A stretch of DNA of 64,000 bases from Fidelibacterota bacterium (GTDB taxonomy: Bacteria; Fidelibacterota; Marinisomatia; Marinisomatales; SCKK01): the NCBI GenBank assembly GCA_004124475.1, contig SCKK01000003.1:1-64000 (forward strand). The letters run 5' to 3'. The number at the start of each line of letters is the position of its first letter. Position 1 is the stretch's first letter. Of this stretch, positions 15,072 to 20,508 are shown piece by piece. The translations under genes and the position numbers were made by a program. The notes under the pieces were generated by a model. The model was given only the letters and a program-made list of their open reading frames with translations. It made no database searches and was not told the origin of the DNA.

Positions 15072-15139
15072 TTTTTGTCTCCTTGGTCAGATTGTTGGTT
15101 CATTGAAACTACAGTTATCTTCCAAGATAGAATTTATAC

Positions 15140-15152
15140 GACTAATTTAGTC
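15140..15152. promoter_or_regulatory. IscR/Rrf2 type-1-like operator upstream of ferredoxin
   Basis: GACTAATTTAGTC is a perfect palindrome and fits the core GACT-RWWWY-AGTC of the IscR type 1 site exactly. It lies in the 15072-15409 gap, on the upstream side of the ferredoxin gene. Two Rrf2 regulators with three Cys each are encoded at 47008 and 61835. Confidence 0.6.
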
Positions 15153-15409
15153 TTATTAAATTTACAAGATGAATCTCACCCAAAGCAAGAGGTATTTCAA
15201 TACTTGCGCTGATTTCAGGAGCTGTAGTCTGGTCGATGCCTTTGGGTCGTTCTTAGAAGATGTGTGGGTAGGAGGCCTAATTCCTACAGATTGGAAATGG
15301 AGAAGTATTCGATTCTTCATTGGACAATCTCCATCTTGACCATTCTATCCTCCTTGTACAGTGGGGATGAGATTTAAAATCCCACAATTCTATTGATCAA
15401 ACAGCGGTT
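15153..15409. other. Gap without recognised feature
   Basis: Only a very short start (MVKMEIVQ) and scattered AT-rich sequence are visible on the minus strand. It lies between the ferredoxin operator and the end of the cyclase-family pseudogene. Confidence 0.4.
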
Positions 15410-15688
15410 TTATTTTGGTACAAGTGCAACAATTCTTAGTGGACCGCCTCTGCCGCCGTGCTCTGCTGTGCTGAATGTGTTGGCGGTGTAGTAAAACCCC
15501 TTGTCTGTAACTCCTTCAAACGCCTATTCCAGTTCAAAGGTTTCTGAAGTTGGACAGTAAATGGTTTCCGATGAGAATACGTGTGTGAGGTCAATCCAAT
15601 TACCCGACGGAAAGATTGTGGGCTTTGTACATCCTGACAACAGGAGAAAGAAGATTGCGAAATAAACGAAATACACTTTCATATTCAT
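15410..15688 (-). pseudogene. Cyclase-family hydrolase (kynurenine-formamidase-like) lipoprotein, deleted and amber-interrupted
   Basis: The ATG at 15688 follows GAAGGAGGACG. A lipoprotein signal (FFLLLSGC) precedes GNWIDLTHVFSSETIYCP, the N-terminal signature of the cyclase family. After FELE a TAG codon (15524-15526) interrupts the frame, which continues AFEGVTDKGFYYTANTFSTA and EHGG, where the family has its HxGTHxD metal site. Instead the frame jumps to RGGPLRIVALVPK, the family's C-terminus. So there is one nonsense codon and one large internal deletion, apparently between GG-rich repeats. Confidence 0.72.
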
Positions 15689-15726
15689 GTTCGTCCTCCT
15701 TCTATTAGATGGATTCAAAGTGAATA

Positions 15727-16108: not shown

Positions 16109-17083
16109 TCAATGCCATTCCCTATGAGTATTTAAGTCTTTCAATAATTTTTTCCAACTCTCGCGTTCTCGAGCGGGATCGACAAGTAATTTTACTTTTT
16201 CACACCTATATTTTAATTTCGCATAAAAGTCTCTATCCGTTTCCGCCATTTGCAACAAGGATGCCAAGGCATCGGTATCCCCAACAGGAAAGTAACCGGG
16301 ATAATCCTCTCCCAAGTGTCCTACAGCGCCCTGGATTCGAGTAGAGAGTACGGGAACAGAGGCTGCAAGGGCTTCCACGAGAACAATTGGACCTCCCTCA
16401 GATTCGGAGGTAATCACCAAAAGTCGGCTTCTCGCCAAGAACCGAACAGTCTTCCAATGGGGAAGTTCGTCCAGCCAATGGTAACGGGGATTGGAGACTT
16501 CCTCGACGTGTGCCTGTTTTTCAAAATCTGGTGTCAGGGCACCACCAATGTGGAGGACCCGGATTTTAGATGTATTTGGCAGCAGCCTTGAAGCCCTTGC
16601 CAAGCGAAATGGGTCTTTGATGGAACGGAGGTGGCCGATCACGCACACATCGAAGAATCGCTTGCGGGGAGCGTGGTTCCCCGGGGGCGGAGTGGCGGAC
16701 TGGTAAATGACGACGGCCTTGTCCTTGTGCTGATCCGGGATATCCTCCAATGTACTCGGTTGGAAAAGTGTGAGCCGCGTTGCCATCTCAATGGATTGGA
16801 AACAACTGGTGCTCCTTTGGCTATCCCAGTATATATCTGTTCCCGTGAGAGCAACAACCATCGGTGCCTCGGGATGGTTGTTTCGATATCTCTCGATAGA
16901 GGGAAAACTCTTGCTGGCATGGAGGGCCACCATAAGATCACACGCCTGTCCGTTGAAATCCTGGGTGATAGCCACACGGTGACCAAGTGAACGCAGGATA
17001 CGAGCCCACCGCAGCGCTGTAATGCGGTTGCCTCTTATGGAGCGAGGCGGAACCGGGGTGACAATACAGATTTTTAAAGACAC
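16109..17083 (-). CDS. senB: Selenosugar synthase-like glycosyltransferase (SenB, TIGR04348 type)
   Basis: 324 residues, GT-B fold. It starts [20 protein letters not shown] with [12 protein letters not shown], carries [50 protein letters not shown] and [20 protein letters not shown], and ends [12 protein letters not shown]. This set is characteristic of the TIGR04348 glycosyltransferases, of which SenB makes a seleno-sugar from a UDP-sugar and selenophosphate for selenoneine synthesis. It lies 9 bp downstream of the EgtB/SenA-type gene, the pairing found in sen clusters. No selD/senC is in the window, so selenophosphate must come from elsewhere. Confidence 0.85.
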
Positions 17084-17092
17084 TGTAGCTTG

Positions 17093-18400
17093 TTATTTGT
17101 TAATGGCACACGTTCGAAATCCAGAAAAGACGTCTCGGCGGGAGGGGGGATAGAAGTTTCGCCACGTGTTGCGGATCAGCCGGGGACGGGTAGCCCAACA
17201 GCCACCGCGCAATACCTTTCGTGTGTGAAAGGAGGTCTGGGAATATTCCTGATACATGTCGGGAACAAACCCCGGATAGGGCTTGAAGGTGGTGGCGGTC
17301 CATTCCCAAACGTTCCCGATCATCTGCCTGCACCCAAAGAGGCTGTCGCCTTCACTATGAGACCGGACGTCCACTGGTCCCATGGCTTGCCAGTCCAGAT
17401 TAGCCTGGGATGAAATTGGGATCCCATCGCCCCAGGGTTGATTTCGCTTGCCATTAGACAAGTTGCTGCCATCCGAATCCGCCGAGGCTGACACCTCCCA
17501 CTCCACCTCCGTAGGGAGTCGCCGTCCTGACCATCGGCAGAACGCCTCCGCTTCGTACCACGAAACATGAATGATGGCCCGGTACTCAGAGATGGGGTCC
17601 CATTGGTTGAAGTTACGCTGGAGCCACCTGCCTTTGCTGTCCCGCTTCCAGTAAAGGGGACAATCCGACTGGACCGACTGCAGCCATTTCCATCCCTCAT
17701 TACTCCACAATTCCGGTCGTCCGTAGCCTTTGTCATCCACAAATTGGGCGAACTGCCCATCCGTCACCGACGTTTTCGAGATGGTAAAAGGCTTAACTTC
17801 CACTTCATGAACCCACTTCTCGTTATCGAAAACAAATGGACTGTCCTGGAATGCCCCAAGCATGAACGTCCCACCCGGAATACTCACTTCGCCATCGGTA
17901 GTATCGGAAACCTCCGGTTGGGTAGGACCATCCGACAGGTGAGACAATTCCGGTGCCGGGTACCCCAATGTCTGCCGGACATAGGTGAGGGCCTCAGTGT
18001 GCATGTCTTCGTGAAAAATCGAATAGAGGATGTAATACCGAAGCTGATCGGACAAGTCTCCTGTTTCGATAAGCTCAAGCACACGGTCTCTCACCGTACG
18101 GACGTAGTCGAAGGCACCTTCCCGGTCGGGAATGGGCAGCCGCCACCGGGTCTCATGCCCAATGGTAATGGAATCGAACAGATCATCCACATCTGGACGG
18201 GAGGGCTTCTTTCCTGCTCCCTGTCTCAGTACCCAGAATTCCTGAAAGTAGGCGAGATGACATAACTCCCAGAGAAGAGGATTGATGGTCGGAAGGTAGG
18301 GGACAGAGAGCTGGTCGTTATCGAGATCAGCAATAAGCTCTATGGAACGGTCCCGAGCTTCCGAAACCCACTCTGCCAGCTGTTGGTTATCCCGCATCAT
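17093..18400 (-). CDS. senA: EgtB/SenA-type nonheme iron synthase (selenoneine synthase candidate)
   Basis: 435 residues: N-terminal DinB-like helical domain (about 1-150) and a C-terminal formylglycine-generating-enzyme/SUMF1 domain (about 170-433). Iron ligands are visible as His48 (LCHLAYFQE) and the pair His130/His134 in HEDMHTEAL. Late motifs include HVSWYEAEAFCRWSGRRLP, GCRQMIGNVWEWTAT and WRNFYPPSRRDVFSGFRTC. EgtB joins a thiol to hercynine; SenA does the same with SenB's selenosugar. Direct linkage to senB favours SenA; sulfur activity cannot be excluded. It overlaps egtD by 4 bp. Confidence 0.82.
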   Translation of the reverse strand: MMRDNQQLAEWVSEARDRSIELIADLDNDQLSVPYLPTINPLLWELCHLAYFQEFWVLRQGAGKKPSRPDVDDLFDSITIGHETRWRLPIPDREGAFDYVRTVRDRVLELIETGDLSDQLRYYILYSIFHEDMHTEALTYVRQTLGYPAPELSHLSDGPTQPEVSDTTDGEVSIPGGTFMLGAFQDSPFVFDNEKWVHEVEVKPFTISKTSVTDGQFAQFVDDKGYGRPELWSNEGWKWLQSVQSDCPLYWKRDSKGRWLQRNFNQWDPISEYRAIIHVSWYEAEAFCRWSGRRLPTEVEWEVSASADSDGSNLSNGKRNQPWGDGIPISSQANLDWQAMGPVDVRSHSEGDSLFGCRQMIGNVWEWTATTFKPYPGFVPDMYQEYSQTSFHTRKVLRGGCWATRPRLIRNTWRNFYPPSRRDVFSGFRTCAINK

Positions 18401-19320
18401 ACCGCCACCAGGTACTGTACACTGAATCTCTTGTCCACATCGGTCCAGATGTTTTTGATTTGAAAAAGACCTCTCGCCATCTCTCCGATTTCACGAAGGT
18501 CGTACTTGCACGAAATTTCTGTCAGGATCGGTTCCCCGTCGTCCAGCCTAATCGTTTCTTTCCCAATATGAACTTCCTGATCGCAAGTGCTGATGAGAAC
18601 CATTTCTATTCTCCTATCCTCTTCGTTGTAGGGAGCGTAGTGGCGGAAGTTATCGAGATTGAAATCAGCGTTCAATGCTTTGTTAATGTGGTGAAGGATG
18701 TTCAGATTAAATTCAGCAGTAATGCCTCTCGAATCGTTGTACGCCGCCTCCAGAGTGGCCCTGTCTTTCTTCAGGTCCATCCCCACCAAAAAACCGCCTC
18801 CCCTCCCGCAGAGTTCGCGAATTTTCCTTAGAAAATTGACCAACTCCAAGCGGTCGACGTTCCCGATGGTGGAACCAGGAAAATAGACCACCCGTTTCAC
18901 TGCAGAGTCCCAAACCATCGGAAGTTCGAAGTTTCCCATCCAGTCGGCACACACGGGTATAACCACCAAGTTCCGGAACTCCCTCCCCAACGAATCGGCA
19001 AGGTCGTTCAACATGTCTTGGGAAACATCGATAGGGACATAGCCCACAGGGGCGGAAAGGTGACTCAACAGCAGTCGCGTCTTCTCACCAGTCCCGATAC
19101 CCAGCTCGATAAGGAGAGACTGCTCTCCTACCGCCTTGGCCATCTCGGACCCATGAACCTCCATGATAGCCAGCTCCGCCCGTGTGAGGTAGTACTCGTC
19201 CAGCTCGCAGATTTCCTCAAAGAGCTTGAAGCCCCGCCGGTCGTAAAAGTACTTGGATGGAAGGGATTTGGGATTCTTGCGGAGGCCTGCAAGCACCTCC
19301 TCCAACATGCCGTGAAACAT
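18397..19320 (-). CDS. egtD: L-histidine N-alpha-methyltransferase
   Basis: 307 residues, the usual size. It trimethylates histidine with SAM to give hercynine, the betaine precursor of ergothioneine and selenoneine. Seen are SLPSKYFYDRRGFKLFEEIC and DEYYLTRAE at the N-terminus, ELGIGTGEKT (SAM motif I), YFPGSTIGN, and FNLNILHHIN, which holds residues of the histidine pocket. It is first of the three-gene group egtD-senA-senB, all minus strand with 4-bp overlap and 9-bp spacing. Confidence 0.93.
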   Translation of the reverse strand: MFHGMLEEVLAGLRKNPKSLPSKYFYDRRGFKLFEEICELDEYYLTRAELAIMEVHGSEMAKAVGEQSLLIELGIGTGEKTRLLLSHLSAPVGYVPIDVSQDMLNDLADSLGREFRNLVVIPVCADWMGNFELPMVWDSAVKRVVYFPGSTIGNVDRLELVNFLRKIRELCGRGGGFLVGMDLKKDRATLEAAYNDSRGITAEFNLNILHHINKALNADFNLDNFRHYAPYNEEDRRIEMVLISTCDQEVHIGKETIRLDDGEPILTEISCKYDLREIGEMARGLFQIKNIWTDVDKRFSVQYLVAV

Positions 19321-19461: not shown

Positions 19462-19823
19462 TTAGAAAGTCAGAACCCAATCCACTTCAACAGACTGTTG
19501 GGCTACAAATTTGGTAGTCACCCACACTGGATTAAGCCAGTTTAGATCATCGTCTGTCACCCCCCGGGCGGTACCGCACGCCGTTCATGTGTAAACGGGT
19601 ACCTTGTGCTCGAGGGCAAACTGAATGAGCTCTTTCAATGGTGGGATGCCCACAGGAAAATGCTTTCAGCCACCGATTTCCTGGCGATGACGGAACCATC
19701 CCCGGCCAGAAGTATCTCCGTCTGGTGCCCTGCCTCAATGGCACCCTTGGCCTTGAAAAATGCAAGTCCTGCTCGAGTGGGATCCTCTGAGCCGTGCATT
19801 ATGATGATGAAAATCTTTGTCAT
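19462..19823 (-). pseudogene. DsrE/F-like sulfur-relay family gene with in-frame TGA at a conserved Cys and one frameshift
   Basis: Start ATG 19823: MTKIFIIIMHGSEDPTRAGL, FFKAKGAIEAGHQTEILLAGD, the DsrE-like fold. Near 19657 one base seems missing (SIF then VGIPPLKEL in the next frame). The frame then reads ALEHKVPVYT-TGA-TACGTARG, and after the TGA continues VTDDDLNWLNP to FVAQQSVEVDWVLTF and a TAA at 19462. Relatives have CxxC here, so the TGA (19585-19587) replaces the first Cys (UxxC if read as selenocysteine). Either a pseudogene with two lesions, or a selenoprotein with one sequencing error. It lies 142 bp upstream of egtD. Confidence 0.6.
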
Positions 19824-19902: not shown

Positions 19903-20508
19903 TTAAAAAAGACTCTGTTGCCCTAGCTGAGGCTCAAGTGTCGGCTTTGAATCGAGGAACGCTTTGAGGGTAGCGAAGTCGGCTTTCACCTGAGGGAGAA
20001 GGTCAGGCCGGCGGAGAGCCGCAGCGGGGTGGTACATGGGGAAGAGAAAAAACTTCTCCTGAGGGATGGGTTTTGCGTGAACTTCGTGGATGACCTTCGA
20101 CTTCTCCACAAAAAGGTGCAAAGCCATATTCCCCAGTAGACAGACCACTTTCGGCCCGATGAGTTCAATTTCCTCCAGAAGATACGGCGCACACGTTTTG
20201 ATCTCCGCCGCGAAGGGGAGTCGACCTCCCGGCGGCAGGCAGCGAGTCACGTTGCTGATCCGGACATCGCTTCTTTCAATCCCCACACCCCTGAGCAGTT
20301 CGTTCAACAAGTCTCCAGCCCTTCCCACAAACGGACGTCCCCATCGGTCCTCATTTGCCCCCGGACCTTGACCGATAAACATTACCTCCGCCTGTGGATT
20401 GCCCTCTCCTGGAACCGCCCGCGTTCGAGACTCGCACAAGGGACACTTCTTACAGCCGAGAATTCTCTGCCGAAGATCCGCAAGCCTCTTTTCAAGCTCC
20501 CTGCCCAT
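19903..20508 (-). CDS. Type-4 (Fe-S) uracil-DNA glycosylase
   Basis: 201 residues. Cluster-binding CKKCPLC near the N-terminus and later Cys (RCLPPGG, IKTCAPYL) fit the four-Cys [4Fe-4S] pattern of family 4 UDGs. Catalytic motif 1 is GQGPGANED; motif 2 is MYHPAAALRRP. It removes uracil from DNA after cytosine deamination. It ends 2 bp before the transporter gene's start side on the same strand (its own ATG lies 2 bp from the permease stop), so it is probably co-transcribed with the ABC transporter genes. Intact. Confidence 0.9.
   Translation of the reverse strand: MGRELEKRLADLRQRILGCKKCPLCESRTRAVPGEGNPQAEVMFIGQGPGANEDRWGRPFVGRAGDLLNELLRGVGIERSDVRISNVTRCLPPGGRLPFAAEIKTCAPYLLEEIELIGPKVVCLLGNMALHLFVEKSKVIHEVHAKPIPQEKFFLFPMYHPAAALRRPDLLPQVKADFATLKAFLDSKPTLEPQLGQQSLF

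Follow-up and report, generated by a model that had tools for sequence, protein, structure and literature searches.

The window analysed here, a 64,000-nucleotide stretch of contig SCKK01000003.1 in the Fidelibacterota bacterium assembly GCA_004124475.1, carries a DsrE-family gene (PF02635) that runs on the minus strand from 19823 to 19462 and has a UGA codon in frame; the gene lies between a uracil-DNA glycosylase gene and the genes egtD, senA and senB (Table 1). The ATG is preceded by GGAGG 9 nt upstream and opens a first frame that runs to 19659, reading MTKIFIIIMHGSEDPTRAG...AESI (whole piece MTKIFIIIMHGSEDPTRAGLAFFKAKGAIEAGHQTEILLAGDGSVIARKSVAESI) and including a motif, GSEDPTRAG, that is common to close orthologues. 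The next codon place (19658-19657) holds two bases only, after which a second frame begins with PVGIPPLKELIQFALEHKVPVYT, passes the UGA, continues as TACGTARGVTDDDLNWLNPVWVTTKFVAQQSVEVDWVLTF (TACGTARGV...VLTF) and ends in a TAA stop at 19462. Both pieces match the same orthologues and, when joined, read as a full-length DsrE domain (PF02635 at 6.7e-13, 49.3 bits against a cut-off of 22.7). An uninterrupted coding frame is present in the orthologues and absent in the window copy, which is broken by one base within 19663-19657 and, as assembled, would give no full-length protein.

The original prediction, made from the letters of this DNA, had placed a TGA (19585-19587) at the Cys place of a CxxC motif and a missing base near 19657. 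Both are borne out, the latter by the two-base codon and by alignment with orthologues, on the minus strand, which had not been stated. It had also described a frame continuing through TACGTARG and 39 further residues to a stop; the continuation stands, but the residues number 32. Programmed frameshifting at 19657 is not favoured: the orthologues lie in one frame and no slippery heptamer was seen. The genome has one other match to PF02635, on a different contig, 126 aa long and with Cys in a CGTC motif.

Table 1. Features of the DsrE-like locus and its neighbours in the window
Feature	Position	Strand	Evidence
Family 4 uracil-DNA glycosylase, upstream neighbour	19903..20508	-	TIGR00758 177 bits, cut-off 125.3
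DsrE-like gene, 5' part, codons 1-55, ATG at 19823	19659..19823	-	matches to orthologues, GSEDPTRAG motif
Frame break, one base missing in ATTTTCC run	19657..19663	-	DNA alignment with intact orthologues G191 and G193
DsrE-like gene, 3' part, codons 57-120 and stop TAA	19462..19656	-	matches to the same orthologues
UGA codon 80, Sec reading, first position of UxxC motif UTAC	19585..19587	-	UGA in 41 homologues, Cys in 9
SECIS-like apical hairpin CGCCC-GGG-GGGUG	19558..19570	-	loop start 19 nt after UGA
egtD, histidine N-alpha-methyltransferase, probably not functionally linked	18397..19320	-	TIGR03438 370.6 bits
senA, selenoneine synthase	17093..18400	-	NF041186 491.4 bits, cut-off 420
senB, selenosugar synthase	16109..17083	-	TIGR04348 369.3 bits, cut-off 300

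UGA and cysteine among homologues

Among 245 genomes from the phylum, two were found to hold an intact orthologue, with 66% identity to the query; they represent two genera in a different family of the class, and each orthologue has a single in-frame TGA at the identical codon (U80). A scan of named genomes added nine relatives in six phyla (one Neomarinimicrobiota, two 'Deltaproteobacteria', which are placed in Myxococcota, two Betaproteobacteria, one Armatimonadetes, one Acidobacteria and two Chloroflexi), all nine with UGA at the Sec80 codon and with frames that are otherwise open. Genome surveys contributed around 30 further homologues with the same UGA; the family profile matched 22 of 396 Acidobacteriota, 71 of 400 Chloroflexota and 18 of the 148 genomes in the class of G245, and many of these survey matches contain a TGA that, in the motif-bearing sequences read out, always falls at the motif position. 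The original prediction had proposed aligning homologues at the UGA, and in that alignment the codon is kept while the frames are otherwise open.

In total, the motif position is UGA in 41 homologues and Cys in nine, although the resulting ratio of Sec to Cys forms is biased by a query that was itself Sec-based. Motif-fitting homologues without UGA read CGTC, CGAC or CHAC, with Cys at the Sec place. The main Cys clade, in Acidobacteriota, is nested inside Sec lineages in a tree that is built on few columns and weak at its deep forks, and this position makes a replacement of Sec by Cys the likely course of change there. In that clade (L052-L058, L072) Cys, as CGTC or CGAC, occurs among Sec forms and the SECIS codons are lost, giving the appearance of a clean Sec-to-Cys replacement. 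Another Acidobacteriota gene (L059:1501-1848, minus strand) carries UGA at each of the two motif positions (UGAU, a UxxU motif) and is possibly a double-Sec form. In a same-class genome (G189), a DsrE-like gene of a different type contains a TAG in frame (L033:456-809, minus strand). No viral relatives of the gene were found, and the only plasmid match, from Deinococcus deserti, is distant (29% identity).

A SECIS-like hairpin with codon-level conservation

Across the Sec genes the UGA is followed by a 5-bp hairpin with a loop of GUG or GGG, G first, that begins 19 nt past the UGA. The complete hairpin occurs in 38 of the 42 Sec genes, the window included, in one of nine Cys genes and at 0.5% of other codon positions; under 500 synonymous shuffles the number of complete hairpins averaged 5.9, with a maximum of 14, against the 38 observed. 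Nearly all Sec members share a consensus 3' of the UGA, GCC-CG[T/G]-GGG-GT[C/G], coding A-R-G-V. GCC is chosen in 39 of 40 Sec genes, CGT in 37 of 41 and GGG in 38 of 40, compared with 46%, 9% and 20% over the remainder of these genes (P = 1.8e-12, 9.3e-34 and 9.8e-25 respectively, with sequences treated as independent), whereas Cys homologues encode the same residues mostly by GCA/GCG, AGA and GGA/GGC. Protein constraint falls far short of explaining this codon choice. The outermost pair (18-30) is G-C in 32 genes and swapped to C-G in seven, the window among the seven, and pairing in the lower stem is less regular than in the apical hairpin.

Bacterial SECIS elements are recognised by a small, G-containing apical loop a short way 3' of the UGA (PMC1088965), and the DsrE-Sec hairpin has such a loop. 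Rfam SECIS models found no match in the window, at the gathering or a relaxed threshold, nor in five orthologue loci; these models do not cover the DsrE-Sec element. Folded thermodynamically as a single sequence, the window's own segment does no better than shuffles, so the evidence for a SECIS is comparative. The prediction had pointed to a GGCG/CGCC stem after the UGA, which is not the conserved one, and had suggested looking for a SECIS there; the search past the UGA returned the hairpin at 19570-19558, with its conservation at the codon level.

These results bear on an alternative in which a Cys codon simply mutated to UGA in the course of gene decay. The frame break would then be a second lesion in the same gene, but the same UGA recurs in 41 homologues with otherwise open frames, accompanied by a conserved hairpin and by codon constraint, and we consider an ordinary nonsense mutation extremely improbable.

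Selenocysteine machinery

A check of the genome for selA, selB and selC, also proposed at the outset, found selA (530.6 bits) and, on the same contig, selB (349.4 bits), together with a tRNA-Sec with a UCA anticodon (58.7 bits against a gathering score of 47). Both selB and tRNA-Sec score above cut-off in 10 of 11 other genomes tested, the exception being an Armatimonadetes MAG (G249) with no selB above cut-off and a best tRNA-Sec of 46.4 bits against 47. The DsrE-like gene of this MAG (L042:1621-1980) has the UGA and hairpin despite the lack of a selB over the cut-off; the bin may be incomplete or the contig misbinned. In the window genome, the tRNA-Sec contig also carries yqeC, for a selenium cofactor biosynthesis protein (L124:13125-13883, plus strand; TIGR03172, 117 bits), and the organism may use selenium in three ways, as Sec, as selenoneine and as a labile cofactor.

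Because the UGA and the hairpin behind it persist in relatives from at least six bacterial phyla, the codon is almost certainly read as Sec. Insertion at this codon is well supported by comparison, and the UxxC selenoprotein that had been put forward as a possibility gains support from the conserved UGA, the Cys homologues, the hairpin and the Sec machinery. The gene very probably descends from, and by its signals still is, a DsrE-like UxxC selenoprotein gene, and what looks like a nonsense codon in a Fidelibacterota (Marinimicrobia) genome would be a coding signal.

State of the window copy

Compared with orthologues, the parts before and after the break have similar dN, about 0.25-0.29, with dS above 1.3, and this low dN relative to dS indicates a lesion that is either recent or not real. 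The window branch is the longest in its own clade (0.38 against 0-0.12) and the copy changes nine of 57 otherwise invariant residues, compared with 0-3 in close peers, which may reflect relaxed constraint. In the sister genome from this genus, selB and tRNA-Sec are present and no DsrE-Sec copy was found. The fast branch, the changed residues and the absence from the sister genome lean slightly toward real loss.

Two accounts of the break, either of which fits the selenoprotein reading of the family, have to be weighed. The window copy could be a pseudogene of recent origin, derived from a genuine DsrE-like selenoprotein gene in which the UGA coded for Sec, a real one-base deletion having since ended that use in this strain. 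We put the chance of this at about even: the frame break, the fastest branch of the clade with its altered conserved residues and the missing gene in the sister genome all agree with it, but the hairpin and its compensated pair are still complete, dN is low relative to dS in both halves, and a single indel is the only lesion. Alternatively, and with a probability a little short of even, a base was lost from a short T run in sequencing or assembly, and the gene itself is whole and is expressed. A single missing base within ATTTTCC with no second lesion, intact orthologues that read through the same site and the preservation of both ribosome-binding site and SECIS speak for an error; against it, a run of only four T is short for a common error type, and the contig shows no visibly raised error rate, since the main neighbours annotated on it are intact.

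Selenoneine genes beside the DsrE-like gene

Profile scores show egtD, senA and senB of the window to be genuine; this cluster (16109-19320, minus strand) has no adjacent selD (senC). The original prediction had taken these neighbours as a sign of selenium use; a link between them and the DsrE-like gene is not supported. The protein could be conceived as a dedicated part of selenoneine biosynthesis, for instance a selenium carrier for SenB/SenA, given that the three genes adjoin it in the window and that SenA is above cut-off in five of eight other genomes reached via the named-genome loci. Against this, SenA, SenB and EgtD occur in none of the 41 other DsrE-Sec loci, within the stretches read, some of them short; in 400 Chloroflexota only one of five genomes with SenA has the Sec protein, whereas around 35 have the Sec protein without SenA. 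Recurrent adjacency to senA/senB, or co-occurrence with them, was not found in this material. A role in selenoneine synthesis is very unlikely, and the adjacency is probably incidental. The sister genome also lacks SenA. Elsewhere in the window, near 15526, where a broken gene was suspected and no Pfam match was obtained, the minus strand (15136-15718) has a 64 aa open frame followed by several stops and looks like a decayed gene.

Relation to known families and proposed function

DsrE-like UxxC selenoproteins were reported in 2005 from the Sargasso Sea set (two sequences; PMC1088965) and enlarged in 2008 with the GOS 'DsrE 2' group (19 sequences; PMC2398784); one is described from Desulfovibrio vulgaris (PMC1794560) and the family is listed in PMC13188914. 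The window gene is hence a further member of a family already known, with which it shares the PF02635 domain, the UxxC motif, Sec or Cys at the same position and a bacterial SECIS after the UGA, the kinship being judged from the published descriptions. In contrast to the published family, Sec forms outnumber Cys forms here (42:9, in a Sec-based query set) and the collected set includes members in Fidelibacterota and, widely, in Chloroflexota. The new points are modest, namely the extent of a Sec-rich subfamily, a sharply defined SECIS consensus and its disappearance from the Cys clade; they extend a thinly sampled selenoprotein family by around 40 sequences, a SECIS consensus and a Sec-to-Cys clade in which the hairpin is erased. 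YedF likewise has a DsrE domain, with a CGxC motif, tied to selenium use (PMC5322559), but it has a SirA-like domain and Cys, whereas the window protein has a DsrE domain only, and Sec.

An AlphaFold model of the intact orthologue G191 (pLDDT 98) has its best Foldseek matches in DsrEFH (2hy5, E = 8.1e-7) and TusBCD (2d1p, E = 2.7e-6), followed by other DsrE-family proteins, and hhalign places Sec80 on the active-cysteine position, Cys78, of E. coli TusD, known as its persulfide-carrying cysteine. The fold is thus that of TusD and DsrE in these complexes, although the window protein scores 17.4 bits against the TusD equivalog cut-off of 89.25 (TIGR03012), has no partner subunits among its annotated neighbours and has UxxC where TusD/DsrE has a single Cys.

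We know of no function assigned to DsrE-like selenoproteins. In the mechanism we propose, SelB with Sec-tRNA(UCA) would bind the hairpin and Sec would be inserted at codon 80, at the end of the strand that bears the active cysteine in TusD/DsrE, and Cys83 would supply the second thiol. Fold and residue position suggest that thiol/selenol redox or the handling of sulfane sulfur (persulfide) is the most likely activity, for which the match of Sec to the persulfide cysteine of TusD opens the way to a concrete assay. A broader and rather unlikely proposal is that the surveyed group constitutes a DsrE subfamily in which Sec predominates and the SECIS (GCC-CGT-GGG) hardly varies; it would extend over many phyla and easily escape annotation, its genes being called as truncated ORFs, and its members may be Sec-dependent persulfide or selenopersulfide carriers dedicated to a task in the traffic of selenium or sulfur. 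No conserved operon partner was found in the DsrE-Sec loci read; in a group of Chloroflexota an acyl-CoA synthetase and a transporter lie nearby, a neighbourhood that looks like lineage synteny.
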